A DNA stretch of 29,366 bases from a virus (IMGVR_UViG_3300034103_001463:1-29366), one strand, 5' to 3'. Numbered from the stretch's first letter, positions 9,727 through 29,366 are shown. Program-made: numbers and translations. The notes: a model not told the origin generated them from the letters alone.

Positions 9727-11055
9727 ATGGGTAGAAAATATATAGGACAGGTAAATAATCAGAACTTCGTATATCCAAATTACGAGATGACTGAGTATGA
9801 TGCAGAAATTGTACACAATATTAATAACAACTGTATATCAGGTACGGTAACAAGTTTTAGTGCAACCACTATATCAAGTTCAAGTATTACTTTTACTTAT
9901 AATGGTTCTTATAATTTTAACGGTGCTGACCCATTTAAAGGTGCTATATTAACACCATTAATAGCTACAAATTATTTATCGGTGCACTGTCAAGTTCCAG
10001 GTAATACATATATGAACACGTGGAGGGTCGTAGACACAAGAAGTACGACTTATAACCCACCAACTTTACCTACGTCAGGTTCGTGGACAGGAGACACATT
10101 TACAATCACACCTGCAACATTTGGTTTAGCAAGTTTCACAAGTGGTACGTATTATTTTGAGTTTAGATTTATAGCTGAAAAATGTTTATATAAAATATGT
10201 TCAGCAGTAAGTGTTACAATAACTACTCCAACTCCCACTCCTACAAGAACCGCTACTCCAACCCCTACGCCAACTGCAACTCCTACGCCAACTGCAACTC
10301 CTACGCCAACTGCAACACCTACAAGTACACCTACACCAACAGGACCAACTGCTACGCCAACTCCTACAGCAACACCATCTAACCCTTGTTATTGCTTTCC
10401 AATTGTGGTTACAGGTAGCACATTACCACCACCTGAAGGTGGCGTTATTGCAACATTAGTATATAACGATTGTTTTGGTACACAAATAGCACGTGCTTTT
10501 ACAGTAGGACCTGGCACATATTATCAGTGCATACAAGTTATAAGTAGTGTCGTTCAATATGACCCAGTTGGAACGCAAGGAATAGACCAATCTTATTTAA
10601 CATTAAGTTATTTAACAGGTGATTGTAGAACTGGTTATGTATGTACAGGATATACACCAGCAAGTACAGCAACTCCTACTCCAACTCCAACTGCAACAAG
10701 TGTAGGACCAACGGCTACGCCTACTCCAACACCAACTGCTACAAGTGTAGGACCAACTGCAACTCCAACCCCTACGCCTACGGTTACTCCTACGCCTACT
10801 CCAACTGCAACAGTAGATTATGATTATTATACTGCGGATGTATATCCTTGTAGTGGTTGTGGTGCTTCAATAGACACTATATTGGTAGCGTTTCCTGCAG
10901 GTTCGTCAGTAACAATAAATAGATTTTATTTACCTGTAAGTGGACCTGATGGTAATTCATATAGAATTGCGGCGTCAGCAAGTCCAGGTATTGCTTTCTT
11001 ATTAACAACATCATTCGGCTCATTTACAACTTGTGCATTAGCTTGTGTAGTATAA
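9727..11055 (+). CDS. Virion-associated protein with two Pro-Thr linkers joining three beta domains
   Basis: 442 residues arranged as domain A (1-165), a Pro/Thr/Ala linker (166-218), Cys-containing domain B (219-309), a second linker (310-362) and Cys-containing domain C (363-442). The linkers are runs of PT, PTA and GPTA, resembling the extended linkers of secreted carbohydrate-active proteins. Domain B has several Cys residues (NPCYCFP, CFG, YQC, DCRTGYVC) and domain C has PCSGCG and CALACV. I do not recognise any of the domains. No signal peptide is evident. It lies between the large tail-tip gene and the tape-measure region, so a fibre-like, decoration or surface-adhesion role on the tail is likely. 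The simple repeats make linker length liable to change by slippage or recombination. Confidence 0.6.
   Translation: MGRKYIGQVNNQNFVYPNYEMTEYDAEIVHNINNNCISGTVTSFSATTISSSSITFTYNGSYNFNGADPFKGAILTPLIATNYLSVHCQVPGNTYMNTWRVVDTRSTTYNPPTLPTSGSWTGDTFTITPATFGLASFTSGTYYFEFRFIAEKCLYKICSAVSVTITTPTPTPTRTATPTPTPTATPTPTATPTPTATPTSTPTPTGPTATPTPTATPSNPCYCFPIVVTGSTLPPPEGGVIATLVYNDCFGTQIARAFTVGPGTYYQCIQVISSVVQYDPVGTQGIDQSYLTLSYLTGDCRTGYVCTGYTPASTATPTPTPTATSVGPTATPTPTPTATSVGPTATPTPTPTVTPTPTPTATVDYDYYTADVYPCSGCGASIDTILVAFPAGSSVTINRFYLPVSGPDGNSYRIAASASPGIAFLLTTSFGSFTTCALACVV
10222..10380 (+). repeat. Simple-sequence Pro-Thr linker repeat 1
   Basis: A short-period DNA repeat built from cctacgccaactgcaact-like units encodes residues 166-218 of the gene at 9727. 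Several perfect copies of a 12-18 base unit follow each other, so this stretch is prone to copy-number change and misassembly. Confidence 0.85.
10654..10812 (+). repeat. Pro-Thr linker repeat 2 with a 45-base direct repeat
   Basis: This encodes residues 310-362 of the gene at 9727. The 17-mer ACAAGTGTAGGACCAAC occurs at 10696 and at 10741, exactly 45 bases (15 codons) apart, inside otherwise Pro-Thr-Ala coding sequence. The frame-preserving spacing points to in-frame duplication. Confidence 0.85.
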
Positions 11056-19473: not shown

Positions 19474-20646
19474 ATGAGTGAAGAAAAAATAGAAAAACAA
19501 AAATACAAATTAGCAAAATCAGACTTTAGACAGGAACCATTATTACCAATATTTTCTGAGGTAATTAATCGTTTGGATTTTGTACTCTACGGAGAAGGAA
19601 ATTTGATGCCACAATATCTTATATCAAGATATAACAATTGCGCAATCCATAAAGCAATCATAACCTCTAAGAAAGAACAAATATTAGGTGATGGTATTGT
19701 TAGTATGAACAACCCAATGGTTACTATCAATTTAATTAATGATAGTGAGGATGTTTCTGACGTACTTGAAAAGTGTGCGTTGGATTTAGTATTGTTCGGT
19801 GGATTTAGTTTAAACGTAATATGGTCAAAAGATAGAAAAAGTATTGCAGAAATATACCACATTGATTTTAGTAGAATTAGAAGTGGTAAGATTAATCCTG
19901 AAACAGATAAGATTGAAAAATATTATTACTGCGCAGATTGGTCTAATACTAAGAAGTTCAAGGTAGAAGAATATCCTTGTTTCAGTCAGAAAGAAAGTGA
20001 CCCAAATCAAATCTATTACTACAAACAATATTCACCATCACAATCGTACTACCCACACCCTGATTATAGCGGTGGACTTAGTGCAATTGAAATTGATGTG
20101 AACATAAAAGAATTTCACGCTAATAATTTAAAGAATGGTATGTTACCTTCTTTATGGATTAATATGAATAACGGCATTCCTGGTGAGGAAGAACAACGTT
20201 TGGTTACACGTGCATTAGAAAGCCAATTTACGAGTGTAAATAATGCAGGTAGACCAATCATCAGTTTCAACGAAAGCAAGGAATTATCCCCTGAAATAAC
20301 GCAAATAGCTACATCAGGTAATGACCAATACTATCAAACAATTTATGACGATATTGTACGTTCTATTTTGTCTGCACATCGTATTTCAAGTGGTGAGTTA
20401 TTCGGTATTAGCACTGCAAACAAGTTGGGTAGCAAGGATGAAATAAATACGCATATTGAATATATACGTAAGTCAGTAATACAACCATATCAAAAACAAT
20501 TGTTGGGTGTATTTGACAAGCTATTGACCCTTAAAACAGGTGTCCCAACAACATTAGAAATTAAACCAATGAGCATATATGAAGTAGGTGATATAGAACA
20601 ACAACCTACCGTAGTAGACACTCCTGAAAATCCAACACAAATATAA
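19474..20646 (+). CDS. Portal protein
   Basis: 390 residues. Portal-type features: N-terminal helices with CAIHKAIITSKKEQILGDG, a conserved VLEKCALDLVLFGGFSLNVIW segment, a beta-rich wing region, then ITQIATSGNDQYYQTIYDDIVRSILSAHRIS with SGELFGISTANKLGSKDEI, the typical portal stem/clip region in which the portal selects hairpins near a helix and an S/G-rich turn. The family forms the dodecameric ring at one capsid vertex, through which DNA is packaged by terminase. The C-terminus is Pro-rich. It leads straight into the connector gene through TAATATG. The terminase genes begin 8 kb downstream rather than directly upstream, an altered order. Confidence 0.85.
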   Translation: MSEEKIEKQKYKLAKSDFRQEPLLPIFSEVINRLDFVLYGEGNLMPQYLISRYNNCAIHKAIITSKKEQILGDGIVSMNNPMVTINLINDSEDVSDVLEKCALDLVLFGGFSLNVIWSKDRKSIAEIYHIDFSRIRSGKINPETDKIEKYYYCADWSNTKKFKVEEYPCFSQKESDPNQIYYYKQYSPSQSYYPHPDYSGGLSAIEIDVNIKEFHANNLKNGMLPSLWINMNNGIPGEEEQRLVTRALESQFTSVNNAGRPIISFNESKELSPEITQIATSGNDQYYQTIYDDIVRSILSAHRISSGELFGISTANKLGSKDEINTHIEYIRKSVIQPYQKQLLGVFDKLLTLKTGVPTTLEIKPMSIYEVGDIEQQPTVVDTPENPTQI

Positions 20647-20647
20647 T

Positions 20648-21277
20648 ATGGCTAACGTACTACTCGTCTCAGAAAATAAAATAAAAGCATTCACAAATTT
20701 AAATAAAAATTGTGATATTGATGCTATACGTGCTGAAATTGGAATAGCGCAGGATATTCATCTCCAACCATTATTAGGAACATTATTCTATACTCATTTA
20801 TTAGACCAGGTTAGCGCAACAGGAAATACTTTTAACGCTGATGAATTAATCCTTGTCAACGATTATATTTCCAACTACCTCATACAAATGAGTTACTACG
20901 AAATTATACCTTCACTACATTTACGTTCAATGAATGTTGGTGTTGTTAAAGCAGGTGCAGTTGATGGTGGACGTGATGGTGTAGATATTGAAACGATGAA
21001 GTACCTACGTAACATTCAAAAACAACGTGCAGACTTTTATATGATGCGTCTACAAGATTATCTTATCACAGGACGTGGGCAAAACAAATTCCCTCAATAC
21101 AATAGTCAAACTACTATTGATGGTATGATTGCAAACAGGTCAGAAAAGTACAACTCTCCTATATACTTAAACCACACATCAAGGTACGGTTATAGTTTAG
21201 CGCAAACAATGCGTAATTTGGATGTATATTCAGACCAGGCACACTATAACCCTCCTTGTACTGATTGCGGATATTAA
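20648..21277 (+). CDS. Head-tail connector (adaptor) protein
   Basis: 209 residues directly after the portal, joined by TAATATG. The segment IAQDIHLQPLLGTLFYTHLLDQV is the characteristic start of adaptor-type connectors in Bacteroidota phages, which bind beneath the portal. The middle contains LVNDYISNYLIQMSYYEIIPSLHLR. The C-terminus ends in PPCTDCGY, a small Cys pair that I also recall in relatives. The family is predicted all-helical. Role: seals the head and links it to the neck. Confidence comes from both position and motif. Confidence 0.75.
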   Translation: MANVLLVSENKIKAFTNLNKNCDIDAIRAEIGIAQDIHLQPLLGTLFYTHLLDQVSATGNTFNADELILVNDYISNYLIQMSYYEIIPSLHLRSMNVGVVKAGAVDGGRDGVDIETMKYLRNIQKQRADFYMMRLQDYLITGRGQNKFPQYNSQTTIDGMIANRSEKYNSPIYLNHTSRYGYSLAQTMRNLDVYSDQAHYNPPCTDCGY

Positions 21278-21287
21278 AACTATTTAA

Positions 21288-21548
21288 ATGAACGACACAA
21301 TTATATTACTCATATCAAACGTATTAACAGGAGCTGTAGGATTTTTTGCAGGTAAAAGACGCAGTGATGCAGAAACAGATAATCAGGTGCTACGCAATCT
21401 TGAATTATCTATCAACCTTTACAAACAAATGATTGATGACCTTAAAGCTGAAATACACGAACTAAATAATAAGGTGCAGCACCTACAAAAAATGGTGGAT
21501 GAACTTATGGCTGAGAATAAAAAATTAAAAAAACATAACGGATTATGA
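21288..21548 (+). CDS. Small membrane-anchored coiled-coil protein
   Basis: 86 residues. The N-terminal hydrophobic segment (IILLISNVLTGAVGFFAG) is followed by a basic KRR and then a long heptad-rich helix (LELSINLYKQMIDDLKAEI to the end), predicted coiled coil. The topology (one N-terminal anchor, cytoplasmic or periplasmic coiled coil) resembles inner-membrane spanins or holin-accessory proteins, but no lysozyme or partner gene is seen nearby. I recall near-identical architectures in Flavobacteriia phages. It starts 10 bases after the connector and ends in an ATGA overlap with the next gene. A lysis role is only inferred. Confidence 0.65.
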   Translation: MNDTIILLISNVLTGAVGFFAGKRRSDAETDNQVLRNLELSINLYKQMIDDLKAEIHELNNKVQHLQKMVDELMAENKKLKKHNGL

Positions 21549-21823
21549 AATTAGAACAGATTGTAAAATTGAAATTTGGTAATGCACCAAAAGCAGAAAT
21601 GGAAGCGTACCCGTGGGATGAATGTATGGCAGACCAAATGGAAAGATATGGTGATGAAGAAACAGCTAAGAAAGTGTGTGGAGCAATTAAAGCAGGAATG
21701 AAAAAATCTTTTGCTGAGGGTGATGATTTGGAAAATGCTTGTTGGGAAGGTTACGAACCAATAGGTCTAAAAGAAGTAGATGGTCGTATGGTGCCAAATT
21801 GTGTGCCAATTAAAGACAAATAA
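21545..21823 (+). CDS. Small protein with conserved Cys/Trp motifs, also seen in phage head genes
   Basis: 92 residues. Two motifs stand out: YPWDECMADQMERYGDEETAKKVCGAIKAG, which looks like a compact helical unit, and GYEPIGLKEVDGRMVPNCVPIK at the C-terminus. I recall both in association with phage prohead proteases, where a GYEPIG-x-VPNCVP tail is common. Here they form an independent protein. It starts inside the previous stop (ATGA) and precedes the small membrane gene. Function unknown; a head-maturation accessory is the best guess. Confidence 0.6.
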   Translation: MKLEQIVKLKFGNAPKAEMEAYPWDECMADQMERYGDEETAKKVCGAIKAGMKKSFAEGDDLENACWEGYEPIGLKEVDGRMVPNCVPIKDK

Positions 21824-21830
21824 TCATCAA

Positions 21831-21980
21831 GTGAATAGTTCTATCAAAAAGAAATTAGAGTGTCTTAAATGGTCTGCATTTGAGGTTTATGTGCGTTTAG
21901 CATTAGCGTGGGTTATAGTTGCGTTGGGATTTGAGATTGTTATGCTTCTTATAGAACTTCAAAAGGAATTGATAGGATAA
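21831..21980 (+). CDS. Putative single-pass membrane protein with GTG start (holin-like)
   Basis: 49 residues if started at the GTG at 21831, eight bases after the previous stop. An ATG at 21780 in the same frame lies inside the previous gene and is less likely. The product has a basic N-terminus (SSIKKKLECLKW) and one hydrophobic helix (VRLALAWVIVALGFEIVML), then a short charged end. Size and topology fit a small holin or holin-antiholin, but many small phage membrane proteins look alike. Its last 78 bases overlap the 3' end of the convergent HNH gene. Confidence 0.4.
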   Translation: MNSSIKKKLECLKWSAFEVYVRLALAWVIVALGFEIVMLLIELQKELIG

Positions 21981-22283
21981 AGTATTAGCACTCCTGTAAT
22001 AGCAATTTTCCTCACCTGTTACCCACTGCAGATTTTCTACCCTATTGTCGTGTCTTATATGGTTGATGTGATGCACTTGTTCCTTACCCCTTACCTTAGG
22101 GATGAACGCTGCTGCAACCAACCTGTGGACCCTAAAAAACACCTGCTTCTTATCCTTGTGCAGACCAATACGTTTGTAGCCATTATCAGTTTTTTCTTTT
22201 AGGATTTTGCCAGACAAATTCCGTACACGACCAGCACTGCTAACTTCATAATCGTAACCCTTAATTCTTTTCCATTTTTCCAT
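21903..22283 (-). CDS. NUMOD4-HNH homing-type endonuclease
   Basis: 126 residues. Residues 4-22 show the NUMOD4 signature (W-K-x-I-K-G-Y, then YEVSSAGRVRN), a DNA-binding motif of homing endonucleases. Residues 53-89 form the HNH domain: HRLVAAAFIP, then H71-H72-I-N, D79-N80, and the closing E-N-L-Q-W-V-T. Such free-standing enzymes nick intronless sites in related phages and spread themselves. It sits alone on the minus strand at the end of the structural block, convergent with it, and the coding DNA is visibly less AT-rich than its surroundings, a sign of recent transfer. The final ~25 residues overlap the opposite-strand membrane gene and may be non-essential. Downstream terminators in 22311-22414 lie upstream of it, so it is probably expressed weakly or from its own promoter. 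Confidence 0.85.
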   Translation of the reverse strand: MEKWKRIKGYDYEVSSAGRVRNLSGKILKEKTDNGYKRIGLHKDKKQVFFRVHRLVAAAFIPKVRGKEQVHHINHIRHDNRVENLQWVTGEENCYYRSANTLSYQFLLKFYKKHNNLKSQRNYNPR

Positions 22284-22310
22284 AACACTATTATAGAAAA
22301 AATAAATGAC

Positions 22311-22349
22311 AAAAAAAAACCCCGTAGCCTCAGTGAAAAGCTACAGGGT
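22311..22349 (-). terminator. Minus-strand intrinsic terminator, distal copy
   Basis: On the minus strand a stem of about nine pairs, with one C/A mismatch, combines GTAGC (22324-22328) with GCTAC (22340-22344) and flanking GGG/CCC. It runs into nine T residues (complement of 22311-22319). It ends any leftward transcript before the HNH gene. It shares the 16-nt motif with the copy at 22377. Confidence 0.85.
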
Positions 22350-22420
22350 ATATCCGACATTAAAAAAGAAACGTTTTAAAAAACCCTGCAGTGAACCTTA
22401 TAAAGCTGCAGGGTATATCC
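22340..22420. repeat. 16-nt direct repeat embedded in the two terminators
   Basis: GCTACAGGGTATATCC (22340-22355) and GCTGCAGGGTATATCC (22405-22420) differ at one base and are 65 bases apart. Each forms the distal stem arm of its terminator plus five conserved bases beyond it, so the similarity extends outside the stem. Confidence 0.85.
22377..22414 (-). terminator. Minus-strand intrinsic terminator, proximal copy
   Basis: A perfect 9-bp stem ACCCTGCAG (22383-22391) with CTGCAGGGT (22406-22414) is followed on the minus strand by T6. It is the first strong stop after the leftward operon (22565-25335). Confidence 0.9.
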
Positions 22421-22445
22421 AACCGTATAAAAAAGAAATTGATAA

Positions 22446-22513
22446 AAGAAGGGTGGCTGTATAACAAACTATATGAAATGGCACTATCAAAATAATAAAT
22501 CACCACCCTTCTT
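22446..22513. other. Long hairpin with 11-bp perfect stem and 46-base loop
   Basis: AAGAAGGGTGG (22446-22456) pairs perfectly with CCACCCTTCTT (22503-22513). On the minus strand T-rich sequence follows. It could be a third terminator, an mRNA 3' stabiliser or a small RNA. The gap 22284-22564 otherwise contains no gene. Confidence 0.6.
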
Positions 22514-22564
22514 ATTATAAATATAGGAAAAGCACACCACAATTCCAAATATTTATAATTATTT

Positions 22565-22882
22565 TTATAAATTAATTTCTGTACGCAAGGTAAAGCCATT
22601 ATCATCCTGCGACACAATTGTCTGCGTAACCAATCCATTATCAAACATACGTTCAATTAAAAGCATACGCTGCGCTTTACATATGTCCTCATACAATCTA
22701 TCATTCATTTCGTTACGATTGGTTGGAAACGAAATAAACAGACAAGGCATCCCGTGTAGTTCAGGGTCGTAACGTGTTGTTAATGCTTGTGGGTCAGGTA
22801 GACCTTCAGAAGGAAAGTGTAGCTGCAACAATCTTTCAAACTCATCATCCTCATTTTTTCCAAAAAATTTAAAGTCTGCCAT
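22565..22882 (-). CDS. Hypothetical protein, last gene of the leftward operon
   Basis: 105 residues starting MADFKFFGKNEDDEFERLLQLHFP. The N-terminal half is acidic, and a helical centre (NEMNDRLYEDICKAQRMLLIERMF) is followed by a beta end (TQTIVSQDDNGFTLRTEINL). No known family. The start is in a TAG-T-ATG junction with the previous gene, so translation is probably coupled. Hairpins and two terminators follow, closing the operon. Possibly an early-phase host-modulating protein; no functional evidence. Confidence 0.6.
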   Translation of the reverse strand: MADFKFFGKNEDDEFERLLQLHFPSEGLPDPQALTTRYDPELHGMPCLFISFPTNRNEMNDRLYEDICKAQRMLLIERMFDNGLVTQTIVSQDDNGFTLRTEINL

Positions 22883-22883
22883 A

Positions 22884-23096
22884 CTAATAATAAATTTGTA
22901 ACCAATCTAATGGTGGGTGCTTTAATTTAATTACCAACTCAGTCCACACTTCAATCAATTCCTTCTTGTTTAGCGGCATTAGTGACTTGATGTAGTCGCA
23001 GTCAAAATCGTCCCCTGTTTCGTTCTTTAACCATTCAATCTGTTGGATGATTAGTTTCTTGTTGTCGCGTTGTAGCTTGTAGCTTTTTAGTTTCAT
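22884..23096 (-). CDS. Hypothetical small helical protein
   Basis: 70 residues starting MKLKSYKLQRDNKKLIIQQIEWLKN. Basic N-terminal half and an acidic middle (ETGDDFDCDYIKSLM), predicted helical throughout. No family recognised. It begins inside the stop of the upstream gene (ATGA overlap, 23093-23096) and is followed by a TAG-T-ATG junction, so it is expressed as part of the operon. The size and helix pattern would suit a small protein-binding inhibitor, but this is unsupported. Confidence 0.6.
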   Translation of the reverse strand: MKLKSYKLQRDNKKLIIQQIEWLKNETGDDFDCDYIKSLMPLNKKELIEVWTELVIKLKHPPLDWLQIYY

Positions 23097-23359
23097 ATTA
23101 TTTCTATATTTGTTTTTTTATTAACCCACTCGTAATTAAACCCCTCGTGATAATATCCACTCACATCAGAAATATAATCTGATATACTATCTTCTATCCA
23201 ATCTTCCTGTAAATGTTTTTCATCCCAATCGGTAGCATCAATAATAATTTCAGTTGGTTCTGCGTTGAAGGTTTTATCATATTCCTCTTTTGTTTGGTCG
23301 TCCATATGGTCTTCGTAATTGTAATACCATTTAATATCGTACACTCTAATTTGTTTCAT
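23093..23359 (-). CDS. Hypothetical acidic protein with a D-Y-I-S-D-x-S-G-Y motif
   Basis: 88 residues, strongly acidic (DDQTKEEYDK, DATDWDEKHLQEDWIEDSISDYISDVSGY). The pattern Ile-Ser-Asp, x, Ser/Thr-Gly-Tyr/Phe, then H-E-G-F resembles a motif I recall in small phage and Bacteroidota proteins (xxAISDxTGFxHxGFxYE), with no assigned function. Both ends are ATGA overlaps with neighbours. The layout (MKQ- start, short strand, acidic helix) resembles the gene at 23698-23937, so the two could be distant paralogues. DNA-mimic or inhibitor roles are conceivable given charge. Confidence 0.6.
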   Translation of the reverse strand: MKQIRVYDIKWYYNYEDHMDDQTKEEYDKTFNAEPTEIIIDATDWDEKHLQEDWIEDSISDYISDVSGYYHEGFNYEWVNKKTNIEII

Positions 23360-23529
23360 ATTGCTTTTTCTATTTTATCTAATACGTTATATAATTGTTT
23401 GAATAAATATTCTTTTTGTGGTGCAAGGTCTGCAGGTTCAGTTGCTGCGTTAGCACACACCCTTTCAAAAAATTCTATTACTCCTACGATTGCGTTCAAT
23501 TCTTCCTTGTTAAACTTTAAGTTAGGCAT
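23356..23529 (-). CDS. Hypothetical small helical protein (57 aa)
   Basis: The frame is open to 23574, but the ATG at 23529 (MPNLKFNKEELNAIVGVIEFF) is preferred. It lies just after the preceding gene's stop, and the upstream extension overlaps that gene. The protein is two helices: ELNAIVGVIEFFERVCANAA and KEYLFKQLYNVLDKIEKAI. A parallel layout (E-x-N/T-x-L, helix, polar loop, K-E helix) is shared with the gene at 24620, suggesting related small dimerising helical proteins. Its stop overlaps the next start (ATGA). Function unknown. Confidence 0.6.
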   Translation of the reverse strand: MPNLKFNKEELNAIVGVIEFFERVCANAATEPADLAPQKEYLFKQLYNVLDKIEKAI

Positions 23530-23534
23530 ATTAT

Positions 23535-23696
23535 TTATTTTTGAAAGGTTGCTGTATAAAACATCTTTACACAAAATTCATCAAACGTCATTTCCTCCTG
23601 ATTTATTTTGGTAGTGTATATTTCGTATAGTCCGTTATAGTTGTCTGTAACAAACTTGAGGATGTGCGGTTTTAAATACTCGTCTATTTCTTTCAT
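23535..23696 (-). CDS. Hypothetical small acidic protein (53 aa)
   Basis: This fills a gap between two longer genes. ATG at 23696 follows the upstream TAA by one base (TAATATG). The product starts MKEIDEYLKPHILKFVTDNYNG and ends FYTATFQK, acidic and helical. It is too short for most gene finders, but junction type and tight packing (five bases to the next ATG) argue that it is real. No family recognised. Confidence 0.55.
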   Translation of the reverse strand: MKEIDEYLKPHILKFVTDNYNGLYEIYTTKINQEEMTFDEFCVKMFYTATFQK

Positions 23697-23697
23697 A

Positions 23698-23937
23698 TTA
23701 TTTATAATTTATATCGGTTTGTGAATAGGTTTTGACTACGGTTGTTTCAATATCTTCTTCACCCAACCAATCGTACAGATAGGATGCACCAATTTCTGCA
23801 AGGTCTTCTACTTCCTGTTCATCATAACCTTGACTGTCAATCAACCATTTCTTAAACTGCATTACTTGTTCATCAGTAAGTTCTACTGTTTCGTAGGTAA
23901 CAATATCACGTGCTACCCTAATGTTAAACTGTTTCAT
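23698..23937 (-). CDS. Hypothetical acidic protein (79 aa)
   Basis: Starts MKQFNIRVARDIVTYETVELTDEQVMQFKKWL. A beta N-terminus is followed by an acidic helix (EQEVEDLAEIGASYLYDWLGEED). The charge is very negative overall. The architecture, a strand pair then an acidic helix ending in aromatic-rich sequence, is like that of the gene at 23093-23359. The start overlaps the upstream stop by four bases (ATGA), and the stop is followed by TAATATG. Unknown function. Very acidic small phage proteins include DNA mimics that block host DNA-binding enzymes, but no such match is claimed. Confidence 0.6.
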   Translation of the reverse strand: MKQFNIRVARDIVTYETVELTDEQVMQFKKWLIDSQGYDEQEVEDLAEIGASYLYDWLGEEDIETTVVKTYSQTDINYK

Positions 23938-24266
23938 ATTTCTTTATTTATTTTTTTGATGATGCGTGGCGTAAGGTCGTAGTGCTTAGTGAACATCTTT
24001 CGTGAGTTTCCTTGTAGCCTATCGCTATTAAGAACCGCAAGTCCAACACCCTCATACCAAAAGTTAATAGCGTCAACTAAAACGTCGCTGCAACCTCTTG
24101 AAAATTCAAATTGTGTTTCACCAGCATCAAGTGCGTCGTGTAAGTCAATCAACATTTGTGCAGTATTAGCTTCTTGTTGTGTTCTTATTGTTTCGTGATA
24201 AACGTAACTAATTAGTATTGCGGTTATATTACGTAAAGCGTGTGCTTCACTTACTGTTAATTTCAT
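23934..24266 (-). CDS. Hypothetical protein (110 aa)
   Basis: Starts MKLTVSEAHALRNITAILISYVYHE. Predicted largely helical; the middle contains LIDLHDALDAGETQFEFSRGCSDVLVDAINFWYEG, and the C-terminus is basic (RKMFTKHYDLTPRIIKKINKEI). The SEAHAL-type opening resembles small helical early proteins. The N-terminal helix is amphipathic and could be membrane-associated only weakly. It is 10 bases from the upstream gene and overlaps the next by ATGA. No family recognised. Confidence 0.6.
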   Translation of the reverse strand: MKLTVSEAHALRNITAILISYVYHETIRTQQEANTAQMLIDLHDALDAGETQFEFSRGCSDVLVDAINFWYEGVGLAVLNSDRLQGNSRKMFTKHYDLTPRIIKKINKEI

Positions 24267-24276
24267 ATTATTTAAT

Positions 24277-24618
24277 TTAAGGGATTTGAAATGAATAAAC
24301 GGTGTCAGGCTGCCATCTTACCACATCAAAAACAATCCACTGCCTTTCTTGTTCTTCTTCGTATGGGTCTGCAATCAATCTGAAGTTCCATAACGGCTGC
24401 AGGTTCAAACCTTCCTTGTAGCGTTCAAGACCTACCACGATTGTTCTGCTGTCTTCGTAGTAACCTTCCACGTACCAATCAGGTGGTAAGAAATAGTGGC
24501 ACTGTTCATTAGCAGCTAAGATAAACTCAATTTGTGCAATTGGATTTTCTAATCCATAAGGGTAGTCGTTAAAGTCAAATATGACTGCACGACCCTCGTA
24601 CATTTTTGTTGTTGGCAT
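24277..24618 (-). CDS. Hypothetical protein (113 aa), aromatic-rich
   Basis: Starts MPTTKMYEGRAVIFDFNDYPY. Rich in Tyr, Trp and Pro (HYFLPPDWYVEGYYED, LNLQPLWNFRL, RWQPDTVYSFQIP), suggesting a compact beta-fold rather than a helical protein like its neighbours. No known family. Its ATG follows the upstream stop by one base (TAATATG). The composition differs from the rest of the operon, but the coding strand and spacing are the same. Confidence 0.6.
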   Translation of the reverse strand: MPTTKMYEGRAVIFDFNDYPYGLENPIAQIEFILAANEQCHYFLPPDWYVEGYYEDSRTIVVGLERYKEGLNLQPLWNFRLIADPYEEEQERQWIVFDVVRWQPDTVYSFQIP

Positions 24619-24619
24619 A

Positions 24620-24802
24620 TTAATTGGTTGTTGGGTTATGTAATTCGGTGTGGAGTTTATCCAATATACTTGTCATTACCGCAGTGGTACGTTCTTTATT
24701 TGGTAACTGCAATTCAGATTTTTCTTCTACTACTTCTAATACACCATATATAAACCCGTGCAGTGTAGTAGCTTCTTGTGGTGTTAAATTAATTTGTGGC
24801 AT
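24620..24802 (-). CDS. Hypothetical small helical protein (60 aa)
   Basis: The open frame extends to 25003, but that part is read through the upstream gene in another frame. The start at 24802 (MPQINLTPQEATTLHGFIYGVLE) is chosen because it leaves a 14-base overlap and the product is regular. It is two helices joined by a polar loop, similar in plan to the 57-residue product of 23356-23529 (M-P-x-L/I opening, a first helix ending before a Glu/Pro-rich loop, KL/DK-rich second helix). Possibly a paralogue. Function unknown. Confidence 0.55.
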   Translation of the reverse strand: MPQINLTPQEATTLHGFIYGVLEVVEEKSELQLPNKERTTAVMTSILDKLHTELHNPTTN

Positions 24803-25112
24803 CGTCAGATAATTTTGATAGTGAATAAAATAGCACCGTGTAAAGGTTGGGGTCATTTTCATACCACGCAATTTGTTCCTCACGAATATCGTGCAGCAAA
24901 TAGCTACCGAATATTGAGGTGATAAACGCACCGCCAAAATTATTGGTAGGTTCGTCACTTGCATAATGTACTTCAAAATCCTCAGGGTCTGCCATCGGTG
25001 CATTCTCGTGCGTCATAATAAAATCAAACGCATCTAACATAATTTCTTTTACTTGTGGTACGCAGTCAGCAAAATTGATTGCTGCATCTTTTTTAATTAA
25101 CTCTACTTTCAT
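24789..25112 (-). CDS. Hypothetical protein (107 aa)
   Basis: Starts MKVELIKKDAAINFADCVPQVKEIML. Acidic, mixed alpha/beta, with segments FDFIMTHENAPMADPEDFEVHYAS and FGGAFITSIFGSYLLHDIREEQIAWYEND. No hydrophobic stretch is long enough to span a membrane. One A separates it from the upstream stop (TAA-A-ATG), and it overlaps the next gene by 14 bases. No family recognised. Confidence 0.6.
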   Translation of the reverse strand: MKVELIKKDAAINFADCVPQVKEIMLDAFDFIMTHENAPMADPEDFEVHYASDEPTNNFGGAFITSIFGSYLLHDIREEQIAWYENDPNLYTVLFYSLSKLSDDATN

Positions 25113-25113
25113 T

Positions 25114-25335
25114 TTAATTGTTTTTTAATTGTTTTTGAATGTGATTGGAAAAGTTTTTAAGGTCTTCGTTAGTGGTGTCCCAATTGAAGATAAACTCAGT
25201 TAGGATTTGGGATAGACGGCACACTTCCTGTACTGATGGTTTAACACCTAATAATGTGTACAGTTCAATTGCACGTTCCATTTGTGATTGACGGACGATA
25301 AGTTCATCCTTGTCTTTTGGACATTTGATAGCCAT
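25114..25335 (-). CDS. Hypothetical small helical protein, first gene of the leftward operon
   Basis: 73 residues starting MAIKCPKDKDELIVRQSQMERAIELYTLLG. Helical, with conserved-looking ELYTLLGVKPSVQEVCRLSQILTEFI. No recognised domain; the pattern would suit a small DNA-binding or protein-binding helix bundle. Being first in an eleven-gene operon and next to 12-bp-phased repeats at 25364-25384, it could be an early regulator acting on its own promoter. That is conjecture. Confidence 0.6.
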   Translation of the reverse strand: MAIKCPKDKDELIVRQSQMERAIELYTLLGVKPSVQEVCRLSQILTEFIFNWDTTNEDLKNFSNHIQKQLKNN

Positions 25336-25363
25336 TTTTAAAGTTTTTAATTGTTAATACTAA

Positions 25364-25384
25364 CACTAATATACGCACTAATAT
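25364..25384. promoter_or_regulatory. 12-bp-phased direct repeats upstream of the leftward operon (operator candidate)
   Basis: CACTAATAT occurs at 25364-25372 and 25376-25384, exactly 12 bases apart, with a degenerate third copy (TACTAAC) just before. They lie 29-49 bases upstream of the leftward ATG at 25335. The phasing near one helical turn fits a repressor operator or iteron. No TTTG/TAnnTTTG promoter was found here; TATATTAG on the minus strand is the nearest -7 candidate. Confidence 0.4.
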
Positions 25385-25807
25385 TGGTAAAAAAAAATGT
25401 GTAGCTAACTATTTTTCCACACCCGTCTTATAACTTCATTTACGAAATACGGAAATTATTTTAAGATTGTTTGGATTTACCGATTTTTTCCCTTATTTAT
25501 TAAATGTACTATCAGCGACAGGACAAGTTGATATTGGTACCCTGAGGGTTTTTAGTTAGCTGCGTTAGTCATTTTCCGCACGACAGTAAGGGATATACAG
25601 GTGGGGTAATCTGCAAATAGCAGTAGGCGTACCTGGTACAAAAAAGGTCAATAGGTCTAAAGAAGATATGGGGAACAAGTAAAGTAGTTCACACGATTTT
25701 ATAAAACTGGTCTTCTGAAACTTATTGGGTGTGTTTAAAACAAGGGTAGCCAGAAGTGTGCCTAATACAAACCACAAGTGTTGAGGACTTAATTAAAACA
25801 ATATACA
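25385..25807. other. Unexplained divergent intergenic region, candidate structured RNA or DNA site
   Basis: No credible gene is present; a minus-strand frame at 25565-25777 is hydrophobic and unlike any protein. From about 25510 to 25790 the DNA is visibly less AT-rich than ordinary gaps in this window, which is often true of structured RNAs in AT-rich phages. Local pairings include ACCC-TGA-GGGT followed by T5 (25539-25554), CTGC-AAATA-GCAG (25611-25623), CACAC with GTGTG (about 25691 and 25729), and CTTCTG with CAGAAG (25712 and 25751). A weak plus-strand promoter is TTTG (25470-25473) with TATTTATT 20 bases later. It does not match any RNA class I can recognise (not tRNA, tmRNA or RNase P). 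Confidence 0.4.
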
Positions 25808-26011
25808 ATGGGAAGTAATATTACAGGGTGGAAGTGGAGGAATGAAGAAATTAGTATGAAAGAATTTTATTTATTACCACAAGAAAAAAAAATTGAGTAT
25901 ATTTGTTCTATTGAAAAACTACCAGCAGTTGAAAGAAGTAGTATGGATGAATTACTACTCAACAGATTTGGTAATACCAAAAAAAACAATTATTTTACAT
26001 TAGAGGATTAG
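25808..26011 (+). CDS. Hypothetical small protein (67 aa), first gene of the rightward operon
   Basis: Starts MGSNITGWKWRNEEISMKEFYLL. Mostly polar and helical, with a Trp pair near the N-terminus. An internal ATG at 25857 (MKEFYLLPQEKK) is an alternative start. No family. TAG-T-ATG joins it to the next gene. It begins after the ~470-base intergenic region, so its mRNA may have a long leader. Confidence 0.55.
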   Translation: MGSNITGWKWRNEEISMKEFYLLPQEKKIEYICSIEKLPAVERSSMDELLLNRFGNTKKNNYFTLED

Positions 26012-26012
26012 T

Positions 26013-26495
26013 ATGGAAACACAAGAACAATTAGACAAGTGGATATATTCCTGTCTAAATTATTATAACAAAAAATCAATTTTCAAAATGAAGACAAACG
26101 AAGAAAGGTTCCAGCAGTTGGAATTAGCACACGCAAGATTGTACAATCAGTACCAAAATCTAATTGAGGATTTTGATAATCTTAAAGAACAATTGGATGA
26201 AAGGTTTAGTGACTTAAAATCTTTTATTGTAGCATCCTCAACGGAAGAAGTAGTAGACCTACCTGAAACCTTAGTACACAATAAAGATTATACTGGTGTA
26301 ATATCTGCAGTATTAAAATCTACTCCAACCAAATGGAATAACAATGACTGGACTAATTGGGAAGTAAAGTTAGAAGGTAAAGATGATTATGCCTACATCG
26401 CTTTCATTCCATCAGAACATATTTTAGCAGCAGGTGACAAGGTTAGGTTCCAGTATGTACATCCATTCCAATTAAAGAAATTAAAACAGATATAA
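26013..26495 (+). CDS. Hypothetical protein with coiled coil and beta C-terminal domain
   Basis: 160 residues. Residues ~25-75 form a coiled coil (NEERFQQLELAHARLYNQYQ, then EDFDNLKEQLDERFSDLKSF). Residues ~90-160 are beta-rich (DYTGVISAVLKSTPTKWN, TNWEVKLEGKDDYAYIAFIPS, AGDKVRFQYVHP), which could be a small OB-like or SH3-like nucleic-acid-binding fold. A homo-oligomeric single-strand-binding or tether role is possible but not shown. Joined to neighbours by TAG-T-ATG and TAATATG. Confidence 0.6.
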   Translation: METQEQLDKWIYSCLNYYNKKSIFKMKTNEERFQQLELAHARLYNQYQNLIEDFDNLKEQLDERFSDLKSFIVASSTEEVVDLPETLVHNKDYTGVISAVLKSTPTKWNNNDWTNWEVKLEGKDDYAYIAFIPSEHILAAGDKVRFQYVHPFQLKKLKQI

Positions 26496-26496
26496 T

Positions 26497-27006
26497 ATGA
26501 AATTAAAGATGAATGACGACTACAGATATGATGTAGATATGGCGCAAATGGATTGGCAGGTAGAGGATAGCAATCCATTCTCAACAAGAGAGTTACCGAG
26601 TATTAACTTGTTCAACGCAATCATAAGAGGTAAGATTGAAATGAAAAGTCATATGCAGACCTTGAAGACAGGTAACCTGTTTATTGAATATCAAATAGAC
26701 AACAAGGGTGATGGTGTTCTTGTACCATCAGGTCTATCCAAAAGCGAAGCTAACTTTTGGTTCTTGAACATTGGTGATATGGGACTATTCCTGTCTGATG
26801 ATTTTCTGCAGTGGATATTTAAACATCAAGATAAATTAGAAATAGAAACTAAGACCAACGAGAAGACTGCAGTGGACCACATTGGTCACGGGTTGATAAT
26901 TCCATTCAATAGAATATTAGAACTACAAATAGATTATTACAGACAGATTGAAGCAGCAGCAGTTCAACTAAGATTAAGAGAATTAAATTTACGTAAGAAC
27001 ACTTGA
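26497..27006 (+). CDS. Putative nuclease-like protein (PD-(D/E)XK-type pattern)
   Basis: 169 residues. The stretch E48-M-K50, then T58-G-N60-L-F-I-E64-Y and, after a loop, P77-S-G79-L-x-x-x-E-A-x-x-W88 matches a pattern I recall from restriction-endonuclease-fold proteins in phages (EIK...TGNLFIEYE...KPSGL..T.ADYW). In these, acidic residues bind metal. Here the usual catalytic set is only partly clear: the position of the Asp in ADYW is Asn. Downstream is helical (LQIDYYRQIEAAAVQLRLREL). It follows the coiled-coil gene by TAATATG and is the last before a terminator. Could serve recombination or host DNA degradation. The family call is tentative. Confidence 0.45.
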   Translation: MKLKMNDDYRYDVDMAQMDWQVEDSNPFSTRELPSINLFNAIIRGKIEMKSHMQTLKTGNLFIEYQIDNKGDGVLVPSGLSKSEANFWFLNIGDMGLFLSDDFLQWIFKHQDKLEIETKTNEKTAVDHIGHGLIIPFNRILELQIDYYRQIEAAAVQLRLRELNLRKNT

Positions 27007-27067
27007 TAAATTAGCTGCGCTATATTATATTTATTGTTAGTGAGAATTTGATTTTTCCTCTAACGTG

Positions 27068-27110
27068 ACCCCTGCATCTTTACTCCCATTTAGTGCAGGG
27101 GTTTGCTTTT
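27068..27110 (+). terminator. Intrinsic terminator after the 25.8-27.0 kb operon
   Basis: A perfect 9-bp stem ACCCCTGCA (27068-27076) with TGCAGGGGT (27094-27102) has a 17-base loop, then TTTGCTTTT. A weaker hairpin (GTTAG/CTAAC, about 27036-27064) precedes it. TATATTTA at 27026-27033 could start a transcript of about 70 bases ending here. Confidence 0.8.
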
Positions 27111-27133
27111 GATAGAAACGATGATATTTATAT

Positions 27134-27907
27134 ATGAAGATATGTTCCAAATGTAAAATAGAAAAAGGTGCAGACCAATACTACACCTACTATCACTCAA
27201 CATTAAAGAAGCACTACACAAGGGGTGTATGTCAAGAATGTATGAAGGTACAAGCTAAACAGGTCAAGTTAAGAATAAAGGAACGTAAAGCACGTTTAAA
27301 GCAGGAAAGAATAGAAATGATAGAAGTACTCGCAGAACAGAATAAAGTCCCTACAATAGTCCCTAATGAATTAATAGAGGATTTTAGTACCAACCCTGAC
27401 TACAAGAGTTGTACTGCGTGTCAAAAATACAAACCACTTTCCGCTTTCTATCAAAATAAAAATACATTATATTATCATTCAAGGTGCAAGGATTGTCATC
27501 GTGATTATTCCAATGGTAAGTTGATAGACTACTATCAGGAAAAGTATAGGACAAAAGGTGGTAGCGAACGTATTTTACCGAAGGCAGGAACTTTCGTTGA
27601 TATTTATCAAGAGGAACAGGTTACGTGGCTCCTGCAGCTAATTGGATGGCGTAAAGAAAATGAGGTGTGGGTCAAGGAAGGAATAAAGAAAGTAGTGGAT
27701 GGAAAAATTGTGTGGGATAAAATACTAACAAAAGAAAAGAAGAAAAAGGAAAGACCTAAACACCCACGAGTATATGATGTAGAAAGAATAGTTCAATTAA
27801 GAAATAGTGGACTACTACTCAGGGAAATAGGTTTTATAATGAAGATTAGTAGACAAACCATAAAGAAGATATTAATTAAAGCTGATGAAGAAAAAAGAAA
27901 TGGTTAA
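27134..27907 (+). CDS. Zinc-finger and HTH protein, probable DNA-binding regulator
   Basis: 257 residues. Two zinc-ribbon-like modules are visible: C4-x2-C7 with C33-x2-C36, and C93-x2-C96 with C118-x2-C121. Each resembles the C-x2-C-K-x(3)-F...C-x2-C ribbons of phage HNH and regulatory proteins. Between and after them are Lys/Arg/Glu-rich helices. The C-terminal ~40 residues (YDVERIVQLRNSGLLLREIGFIMKISRQTIKKIL) form a helix-turn-helix of the resolvase/sigma type. No HNH catalytic His-Asn-His is present, so a transcription or replication regulator is more likely than a nuclease. GATATTTA lies 11 bases upstream. It overlaps the next gene by 23 bases (or 8 if that starts at 27900). Confidence 0.65.
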   Translation: MKICSKCKIEKGADQYYTYYHSTLKKHYTRGVCQECMKVQAKQVKLRIKERKARLKQERIEMIEVLAEQNKVPTIVPNELIEDFSTNPDYKSCTACQKYKPLSAFYQNKNTLYYHSRCKDCHRDYSNGKLIDYYQEKYRTKGGSERILPKAGTFVDIYQEEQVTWLLQLIGWRKENEVWVKEGIKKVVDGKIVWDKILTKEKKKKERPKHPRVYDVERIVQLRNSGLLLREIGFIMKISRQTIKKILIKADEEKRNG

Positions 27908-28148
27908 GATTGGACACTTAGATGTACCTGTAGGATATTTTACATTACCTGTGGATGAAAAGGAAATAATATGCAATTCAATATTGGAAAGTATGTTATA
28001 TATTCTTGAAAAACATACAGACCCTGAGGTGAATAGATTTGAAATACTCAATAAGATAATAGACAGCAGCATACTAATGAACGAACACGATGAGAATTAT
28101 GAGGTAGCAGGTGTTCTATTTGACATACGAAAAATGATTAATGAATAA
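27885..28148 (+). CDS. Hypothetical helical protein (87 aa)
   Basis: Starts MKKKEMVKIGHLDVPVGYF. An alternative ATG at 27900 gives the shorter overlap of 8 bases with the zinc-finger gene and is equally likely. Contains LPVDEKEIICNSILESMLYILEKHTDPEVNRFEILNKIIDSSI, a helix-rich region of the kind found in small regulatory or adaptor proteins. No family recognised. The stop overlaps the start of the sigma-like gene (28141) by 8 bases, so the three genes probably act together. Confidence 0.6.
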   Translation: MKKKEMVKIGHLDVPVGYFTLPVDEKEIICNSILESMLYILEKHTDPEVNRFEILNKIIDSSILMNEHDENYEVAGVLFDIRKMINE

Positions 28149-28662
28149 AGATATAGAAACGTTCCTTGCAAAAAATTATTACCTATTAGAAAGTATAGCT
28201 AATAAATTAACGAAGGGTGACCCACTAACAAAAGATTTGCTGCACGAATGTATTTTGCAGGTGTTAGAAAAAGATAAGATTGTTCTACACAAGAATGATG
28301 ATAAGACCATAACATATTACTTCACTGCTATAATGCGTATTAATTATTTTAGTAAGACAAGTCCATTCCATTATAGAATAAGAAGGGAAAGACAAATAAT
28401 GAATGTAGATGTTGCAACGTGTTGGGATATATCATACGAACAACAAGAATTTGAAACAGAAAGAATATATCAACTATTGGAGGAGAACTACGCAGAACTT
28501 GATTGGTTCAAGAAGAGCCTGTTAGACCTTTATCTTTCTCTCAACAGTAGTATGAATGCGGTAAGTCGTAAAACAAATATTCCCAAAACAAGTATTTCTC
28601 GTTATATTAATGAAATAAGAAAGATAGTCAAGGAAGACATAAAGATAAAATTAAACAGATAA
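28141..28662 (+). CDS. Sigma-70-like factor (ECF-type), possible late-gene regulator
   Basis: 173 residues. Residues ~10-45 (ESIANKLTKGDPLTKDLLHECILQVLE) resemble sigma region 2, a helix pair with L-L-H-E-x-x-x-x-V-L. Residues ~115-170 end in a region-4-like helix-turn-helix (SSMNAVSRKTNIPKTSISRYINEIRKIVKE), with R/K-rich recognition helix. The link between is short and Tyr-rich. I recall sigma-like proteins of this size and layout in Flavobacteriia phage genomes near the terminase. It lies between a helical protein and a small Cys-rich gene and upstream of the terminase small subunit. A role in transcribing the structural block from TATATTTA motifs would fit, but there is no direct evidence. 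Confidence 0.6.
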   Translation: MNKDIETFLAKNYYLLESIANKLTKGDPLTKDLLHECILQVLEKDKIVLHKNDDKTITYYFTAIMRINYFSKTSPFHYRIRRERQIMNVDVATCWDISYEQQEFETERIYQLLEENYAELDWFKKSLLDLYLSLNSSMNAVSRKTNIPKTSISRYINEIRKIVKEDIKIKLNR

Positions 28663-28665
28663 ACA

Positions 28666-28791
28666 ATGCCTTGTGGATGCAAACAACCAGTGGTAAGAAA
28701 CCCTAAACCAACCCCTGAGGTAATTAAAATAGAAACGGATGGCGAAAGCGAAACAAGTAGTACAGAAACAACAACAACCGATAGTGAGTAG
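28666..28791 (+). CDS. Small Cys-starting, Thr/Glu-rich protein (41 aa)
   Basis: ATG at 28666, three bases after the sigma-like stop. The product begins MPCGCKQPVV and continues with KPTPEVIKIETD, then a Ser/Thr/Glu-rich low-complexity tail. The CGC opening looks like the short Cys-x-Cys N-termini seen in some tiny phage proteins. It overlaps the next frame by 53 bases. Either frame could be the only real one; the Cys-rich start and tight spacing favour keeping it. Confidence 0.4.
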   Translation: MPCGCKQPVVRNPKPTPEVIKIETDGESETSSTETTTTDSE

Positions 28792-28981
28792 TATATCCAA
28801 TGAGGATATATTATTTGCACATATGGTTTTAAAAGCGAGTGGTGCTACACAAGAATATAAAGATAAAGCGAACAATATATACAAACTTATATTTAATGAG
28901 GATGTAGTATATGGATGCTGCAAAAATAAAGCGTATATAAAGTTAGACCATTATATACGTAACACATTAAAACTATTATAA
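28739..28981 (+). CDS. Hypothetical small protein (80 aa)
   Basis: Starts MAKAKQVVQKQQQPIVSS, overlapping the previous gene by 53 bases. Alternative starts such as 28823 (MVLKASGATQEYKDK) shorten the overlap. The C-terminal part (FNEDVVYGCCKNKAYIKLDHYIRN) has a Cys pair and basic residues. Its stop overlaps the next ATG by one base (TAATG), which supports the 3' part. No family recognised. Confidence 0.5.
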   Translation: MAKAKQVVQKQQQPIVSSISNEDILFAHMVLKASGATQEYKDKANNIYKLIFNEDVVYGCCKNKAYIKLDHYIRNTLKLL

Positions 28982-29366
28982 TGGAAAAGAAAGGACGTAA
29001 GACCGATGAGTTGGAGTTTGAACAGGTAATGGAACGAGTGTACTATATGATGCTGTACGAACATTTATCTTATCGTGAGTTTGCAAGTAAAGCTGCGAAG
29101 GAATTTAAAATAACAGAACGTCACGCAGAAAGATTATGGAAAGAAGGGAGAGATAGATTAAAAGAAAGGTTTAAAAATAATCAGGAAGAAATATTGGAGA
29201 ACCATCTAAATCAATTATACGATTTGTTAAAGAGATGTAGAGATGATAATAACAAACGCACAGAACGTGAGGTACTTGCAGACATTGCTAAGGTATATCA
29301 ACTTGAAGTGAAGAAGGTAGACATTACAAGTGGTGGAACACCAATAGCAATAAACATAAACTTAGA
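28981..29366 (+). CDS. terS: Terminase small subunit (3' partial)
   Basis: 128 residues visible before the window ends. Residues ~25-60 form a helix-turn-helix (LSYREFASKAAKEFKITERHAERLWKEG) typical of small terminase DNA-binding domains. A long helix follows (LENHLNQLYDLLKRCRDD, then REVLADIAKVYQLE), and the end has the KVDITSGGTPIAININ motif, like the C-terminal KVEITxxG-x-I-x-I of small terminases. Role: recognises the packaging site and recruits the large subunit, which is expected just past the window end. The gene starts in a TAATG overlap with the upstream gene. Confidence comes from fold pattern and motif. Confidence 0.75.
   Translation, partial: MEKKGRKTDELEFEQVMERVYYMMLYEHLSYREFASKAAKEFKITERHAERLWKEGRDRLKERFKNNQEEILENHLNQLYDLLKRCRDDNNKRTEREVLADIAKVYQLEVKKVDITSGGTPIAININL

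Follow-up and report, generated by a model that had tools for sequence, protein, structure and literature searches.

A fixed-site leftward cassette in a likely Bacteroidota-infecting phage group, with a conserved small gene and a covarying hairpin RNA

Do eleven small, tightly packed genes without recognised relatives form one system, or are they loosely joined parts that happen to share a place in a phage genome? The question is raised by the minus strand between positions 22565 and 25335 of IMGVR_UViG_3300034103_001463, an IMG/VR record whose entire 29,366 bases make up the window analysed here. An initial annotation had described this block as a leftward cassette of unknown, often acidic proteins with internal look-alikes, and had proposed it as a candidate undescribed system with a possible role in host takeover or counter-defence.

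The window is a fragment of a tailed phage, in which the genes for the portal, capsid-maturation protease, tape measure, and terminase are oriented rightward; the phages with this cassette are probably tailed and lytic. Their host likely belongs to the Bacteroidota, as the start regions of the eleven ORFs are A/T-rich and lack Shine-Dalgarno sequences, and as the only relatives of the portal among isolated phages are those of P12024S/L, from a marine Persicivirga/Nonlabens host (29.6% identity). Searches of bacterial genomes for g11 and the portal gave no match that would indicate a host, and a megablast search with positions 20000-29366 matched no phage record.

Eleven small genes in a slot of high turnover

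All eleven ORFs start with ATG and were numbered from g1 (22565) to g11 (25335) (Table 1). The identical set was returned independently by a gene caller that had learned codon usage from the structural genes, and the close packing reported initially was recovered as well: neighbouring ORFs are separated by 1-10 bases or overlap by 4 or 14. In the nearest relative (L003), ten of the eleven genes were found in identical order, and dN/dS values against this locus lay between 0.09 (g2) and 0.59 (g7) for nine genes and at 0.81 for g1. The conserved order and these values indicate that the ORFs are real rather than chance occurrences and, as judged by dN/dS, most of them are under purifying selection.

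Table 1. Features of the leftward block and its surroundings, in positions of the window.
Feature	Position	Strand	Length	Remarks
g1	22565..22882	-	105 aa	Terminal cassette gene; begins M..FKFF
g2	22884..23096	-	70 aa	Accessory; in L124 also adjoins g11
g3	23093..23359	-	88 aa	Acidic accessory; missing in L003
g4	23356..23529	-	57 aa	Two-helix accessory protein; resembles g9
g5	23535..23696	-	53 aa	Accessory gene of widest spread among the eleven
g6	23698..23937	-	79 aa	Acidic accessory; unrelated to g3
g7	23934..24266	-	110 aa	Accessory
g8	24277..24618	-	113 aa	Acidic accessory
g9	24620..24802	-	60 aa	Two-helix accessory; N-terminal LTxxE motif; resembles g4
g10	24789..25112	-	107 aa	Accessory
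g11	25114..25335	-	73 aa	Conserved core gene; promoter-proximal
g11 -7 element TATATTAG	25366..25373	-		Precedes g11; differs from TAnnTTTG at one position
RNA promoter TTTG-N20-TATATTTA	22518..22549	-		Predicted; motif enrichment upstream of RNAs
Structured small RNA	22443..22515	-		Covariation; covariance model built without the window
RNA stem	22513-22503 with 22456-22446	-	11 bp	Long AU-rich loop, then U-run
Loop motif GCCAU	22478..22482	-		In 44/45 distinct RNAs
Stem then T-run, terminator-like	22377..22413	-		Read directly in sequence
Intrinsic terminator-like hairpin	22319..22349	-		Predicted

The description of the proteins as acidic and without recognised family was borne out. Eight of the eleven had a pI of at most 5.1, and neither Pfam nor PHROGs returned a trustworthy match for any gene. 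For g1-g10 the same was true of PADLOC, which covers defence, not counter-defence, and gave a single weak match (g2, E 0.0056); for g11 it was true of NCBIfam and PDB sequences. Homology to structural phage families, which the initial annotation had named as evidence against its proposal, was found for no cassette member in Pfam or PHROGs. The structural model of g10 was poor (pLDDT 65.6), and its structural matches were uninformative.

Two pairs of look-alikes had been proposed within the block. When the eleven families were compared among themselves and against 71 further cassette families by profile-profile alignment (hhalign), the g4/g9 pair ranked first among 836 pairs (probability 69.7, E 4e-5), aligning over nearly the full length (positions 1-55 versus 1-52), whereas the g3/g6 pair received a probability of 0.2 and its kinship was rejected. 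Judged from sequence profiles, paralogy within cassettes is real, and only g4/g9 of the two pairs holds; a cassette of another locus (L075) carries two g10 paralogs. An 'LTxEE' motif was enriched in cassettes (20/113 versus 8/342), which is only suggestive, since the pattern was composed after the sequences had been seen.

The related loci L002-L128 came from the viral collection, which was scanned with g8, the portal, g10, and g11. Wherever covered, the order was the same: capsid, portal, and small genes running rightward, then the leftward cassette, followed by r67, endonuclease VII, sigma, and terminase genes running rightward. In every relative covered, a leftward cassette of 1-15 genes occupied the slot that the portal block bounds on one side and the endonuclease-VII/sigma/terminase block on the other, and the 327 cassette proteins fell into 101 families. 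This combination of constant flanking core genes with differing gene content is that of an accessory hotspot. The ten genes other than g11 were sporadic, occurring in 2-17 loci each, whereas g11 was present in 81 and is close to universal; the next most common families were a winged-helix gene (27 loci), which is not present in the window, g5 (17), and g8 (9), with others in a handful. Relatives of g1 (about 30% identical) were located in other cassettes, and g3, which at first seemed unique, had homologs in L129/L135 (79% identity, 156 aa, with an extended C-terminus) and in L136. The recognisable cargo of other cassettes consisted mostly of homing endonucleases, GNAT, AAA, SprT-like, and DruA proteins, and an AbiEi-like winged helix; no cargo protein had a known counter-defence relative. 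In its sequence anatomy, the cassette is a known kind of phage region with mostly exchangeable content, and the block does not hold together as one eleven-part system: ten of its genes are loose cargo.

The head and portal genes, encoded on the other strand, are neighbours of the block, and g1 and g7 are weakly constrained, as might be expected if the cassette were late or structural, or an accumulation of non-functional debris. We consider this highly improbable in view of the purifying selection on most of the ORFs and the missing matches to structural families, and since identical cargo families recur across different cassettes.

The g11 gene and a hairpin RNA

The homologs of g11 comprised 53 distinct sequences, and in L078, L079, L081, L083, L085, L086, L109, L111, L114, and others g11 was the only leftward gene. 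Its product was confidently modelled as a three-helix protein (pLDDT 87.6), for which no fold in the PDB matched with E <= 0.001. The best viral structural matches were uncharacterised phage proteins (TM 0.67-0.82), and searches of isolated phages gave nothing better than E > 0.1. A histone-fold-like reading was rejected, as its Z-scores (<=4.5) were within the range of common arrangements.

Downstream of g1, just outside the block and on the same strand, lies a structured RNA that the initial annotation did not contain. Blast searches across the fetched loci showed that the arrangement of promoter and hairpin recurs in cassettes with unrelated cargo. In a set of seven sequences, the 11-bp stem was 96.1% paired, with six double-change pairs, and a covariance model built from this set (R1) found many further RNAs. 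An alignment of 25 sequences, which was fitted to the covariance model and is hence biased towards it, had compensatory changes in 11/11 stem pairs, 74 double-change cells (20.4 +/- 3.7 in shuffles), and a covariation score of 0.775, compared with 0.238 +/- 0.027 for shuffled and 0.08-0.21 for slid controls; RNAalifold predicted the identical helix from it. A second model, which left out the window, L003, L010, and L011, recovered the copy in the window at 76.3 bits (E 4e-13). The bases of the stem vary freely, while the loop of 45-55 nt retains its GCCAU motif (GCCAT in the DNA) in all but one of the distinct RNAs. No Rfam 15 family reached its gathering score in the window and ten relatives; weak hits near the RNA (the trpB motif and others) were below gathering scores, lay mostly on downstream terminators, and were discarded. 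The RNA is uncatalogued and strongly covarying, and the core that it forms with g11 is the new part of this finding.

The RNA was detected in 49 of 60 complete cassettes, in every case on the strand of g11. Where no gene intervenes, it starts 34-107 nt past the g11 stop codon; elsewhere, cargo genes lie in between (ten in the window, nine in L003, and seven each in L011 and L013). By manual inspection, two loci with a shortened stem (L079 and L081) were added, as was L075, a less certain case that has GCCAA in place of the motif. The RNA was also found in L132-L134, loci fetched via a divergent g11 subfamily, while g11 occurred without a recognisable RNA in L033 and L127. In a reciprocal scan, the whole viral collection was searched with a DNA pattern of promoter and loop motif that was blind to g11. 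Thirty of the 76 hits were real, of which 14 were in contigs known to carry the RNA and 16 were identified as new by the model, and 14 of these 16 contigs encoded a g11 homolog. The other 46 were taken as chance hits, as they had neither a model match at the site nor g11. One locus combined the RNA and g5 without a recognisable g11 (L201), and a more distant phage gave a borderline hit (L141, 30.7 bits). The scan of the viral collection found no RNA clearly outside this kind of phage.

An AT-rich element that usually occurs once per genome, in a fixed place and with a promoter, could also be a DNA or primer-RNA signal, such as a replication origin with a priming transcript, and no replication genes were recognised from the portal to TerS. 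This is quite unlikely, as the element shifts by up to 2.6 kb relative to g11 and can be situated inside the cassette, its stem drifts in sequence but its loop motif does not, and no iteron-like array was found in the region.

Promoters and a candidate mode of action

The primary-sigma consensus of Bacteroides combines TTTG at -33 with TAnnTTTG at -7; this type of motif is functional in Flavobacterium too (PMC7366714, PMC2483708). Motifs of this host type stand before both g11 and the RNA. TATATTTA was found upstream of 42 of the 49 distinct RNAs (1.8 +/- 1.2 in shuffled sequences), in 28 of them with TTTG 17-22 bases farther upstream (2.6 +/- 1.5 shuffled), and the stem starts a few bases past the -7 box. 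Similarly, TAnnTTTG preceded the first cassette gene in 21/53 cases (4.3 +/- 2.0 shuffled), with a usual spacing of 22-25 nt to the start codon, whereas at the capsid (MCP), protease, sigma, and TerS genes it was not above chance. The rightward divergent genes carry the motif too (12/49 versus 4.4 +/- 1.6), so that it is by itself no marker of early genes; the promoters are compatible with early transcription. The RNA shows the covariation-supported secondary structure of a small-RNA gene and, in the form of motifs, a promoter and terminator of its own.

In 40 of the 45 distinct sequences the stem is followed by a U-run, and short cassettes have the hairpin at their end, so it could simply terminate transcription of the g11 operon or mark its transcript for processing, with no regulatory RNA involved. 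We find this distinctly unlikely. The hairpin has its own promoter, placed for transcription to start at the stem, and the stretch from g11 to this promoter often contains a separate terminator (L133, L134); in the window, two more terminator-like hairpins follow the RNA. Furthermore, a terminator would need neither the long loop nor the near-invariant GCCAU, and in L011 and L013 the hairpin is located mid-cassette.

We consider it moderately probable that, taken as a whole, the locus is a fixed-site cargo cassette with a g11/RNA core, early transcription by the host RNA polymerase, takeover cargo, and a trans-acting RNA. Cargo genes come in and drop out either in the interval from g11 to the RNA or next to these two, in a cassette running leftward against the structural genes. 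Host RNA polymerase with its primary sigma factor would transcribe g11 and the RNA soon after infection, and cargo proteins would singly block or retune host or defence proteins. The RNA would act in trans by base-pairing through UGCCAUUU, lowering the translation of host and/or phage mRNAs, among which g11 mRNA is one possible target. Such a core of g11 and a small RNA with interchangeable cargo would probably be an early host-takeover or counter-defence module. The function suggested initially is thus supported in part: the fixed slot, fast gene turnover, small ORFans of acidic character, and a promoter of host type that is absent from the tested structural genes speak for it, but no match to a known defence or counter-defence family was found.

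The antisense counterpart of UGCCAUUU is AAAUGGCA, in which the start codon precedes an Ala codon, as in AUG-GC start regions. The start of g11 is ATGGC in 36 of 51 distinct contexts, compared with 13% of genes genome-wide, and cognate pairing between the RNA and the g11 start was slightly better than that of random loops (p = 0.022); gp209 showed no such effect. These observations would suit an antisense RNA that regulates g11 alone, in cis or locally, and serves autoregulation of the module rather than acting on the host. This is unlikely: the 15 contexts without ATGGC belong to genomes that mostly keep GCCAU in the RNA (e.g., L018, L026, L043, and L054), and the g11 contexts are not independent, as the start is inherited by common descent. 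A single universal phage mRNA target was looked for, and none was found. Together, the g11 start data and the pairing results make trans pairing plausible, with g11 perhaps one target and host mRNAs the likelier main target; the idea of start codons as targets is a weak one. Its most far-reaching form is that an undescribed RNA family and g11 are the host-takeover core of a large uncultured clade of Bacteroidota-type phages, in which GCCAU would pair with AUG-GC starts and dampen the translation of many mRNAs in hosts whose initiation does without Shine-Dalgarno pairing. We consider this unlikely.

Comparison with known systems

Translation start and RNA chaperones of Bacteroidota differ from those of E. 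coli. Hfq is not evident in Bacteroides (PMC7366714). The RNA differs from phage trans-acting small RNAs, such as VpdS of phage VP882 (review PMC12197685), in having no homology to any Rfam family, and neither Bacteroidota nor Flavobacteria turned up in a text search of that review. It resembles them in being short and free-standing, with its own promoter, a stem, a U-run, and a conserved single-stranded stretch, features that are here read from sequence alone. If it is expressed, phages of a widespread, uncultured group would share a fixed RNA family that is missing from the catalogues and whose motif is sharp enough to test. An RNA of a type III toxin-antitoxin system, which consists of tandem repeats immediately upstream of the toxin gene, does not fit a single hairpin downstream of g11 in a region with no repeat array.

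Nonlabens phage P12024S (Inhavirus) shares with the window phage a related portal, a sigma factor near the terminase genes, and a leftward block of small genes. However, it lacks g11 and the RNA, and its leftward block is positioned differently. The portal identity and the megablast result do not place the window phage within Inhavirus.

Accessory and early host-takeover regions are known from other phages, including the early region of T7 and other hypervariable loci. The g11/RNA finding may offer a handle on how Bacteroidota phages take over their hosts, and the pair can serve as a marker for locating more cassettes of small phage proteins and for sorting core from cargo. With T7-like early and hypervariable regions, the cassette shares a fixed slot, packed small ORFans, high turnover among close relatives, and a host-type promoter of its own; unlike them, it belongs to a Bacteroidota-type phage and is anchored by a conserved 73-residue gene and a structured RNA.

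Module copies and cargo-gene variation

Two complete modules of g11, the conserved first cassette gene, and the structured small RNA were found on one contig, the 57,002-base contig of L041 (L130, L131/L132). The modules differ in g11 subfamily and there are two sets of flanking genes; either the assembly joined two phages, or the region was duplicated. In the cassette at L201:9210-10203, the RNA and the accessory gene g5 are present, while the g11 position is occupied by a gene for an unrelated 96-residue protein.

Among the other accessory genes, two g10 paralogs were encoded within the single cassette of L075 (2278-2595 and 2758-3063), where a relative of g2 lies on the opposite strand. The carboxyl-terminal extension of a g3 relative (L129:756-1226) resembles a separate two-helix cassette protein, suggesting that cargo genes were fused, or that read-through occurs between them.

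Further genes in and around the cassette

Genes similar to the winged-helix-like gene of L019 were detected in 27 loci, and the gene is absent from the window. Its product is likely a regulator of the cassette, and may account for the weak hits to AbiEi that the batch scan gave. As the endonuclease ORF was not picked by the codon-usage caller, trained on the window's structural genes, it is probably a recent arrival.

Positions of further features
Feature	Position	Strand	Remarks
Winged-helix-like protein, ~150 residues	L019:7567-8028		directly upstream of g11
NUMOD4/HNH homing-type endonuclease	21903-22283	-	directly past cassette terminators, on cassette strand
Sigma-factor-like protein	28141-28662	+	phrog_1740, E 1e-7; terminase genes downstream
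Long TPTPTPTATPT repeat protein	9727-11055	+	G+C locally raised

The sigma-factor-like protein may drive the late genes.
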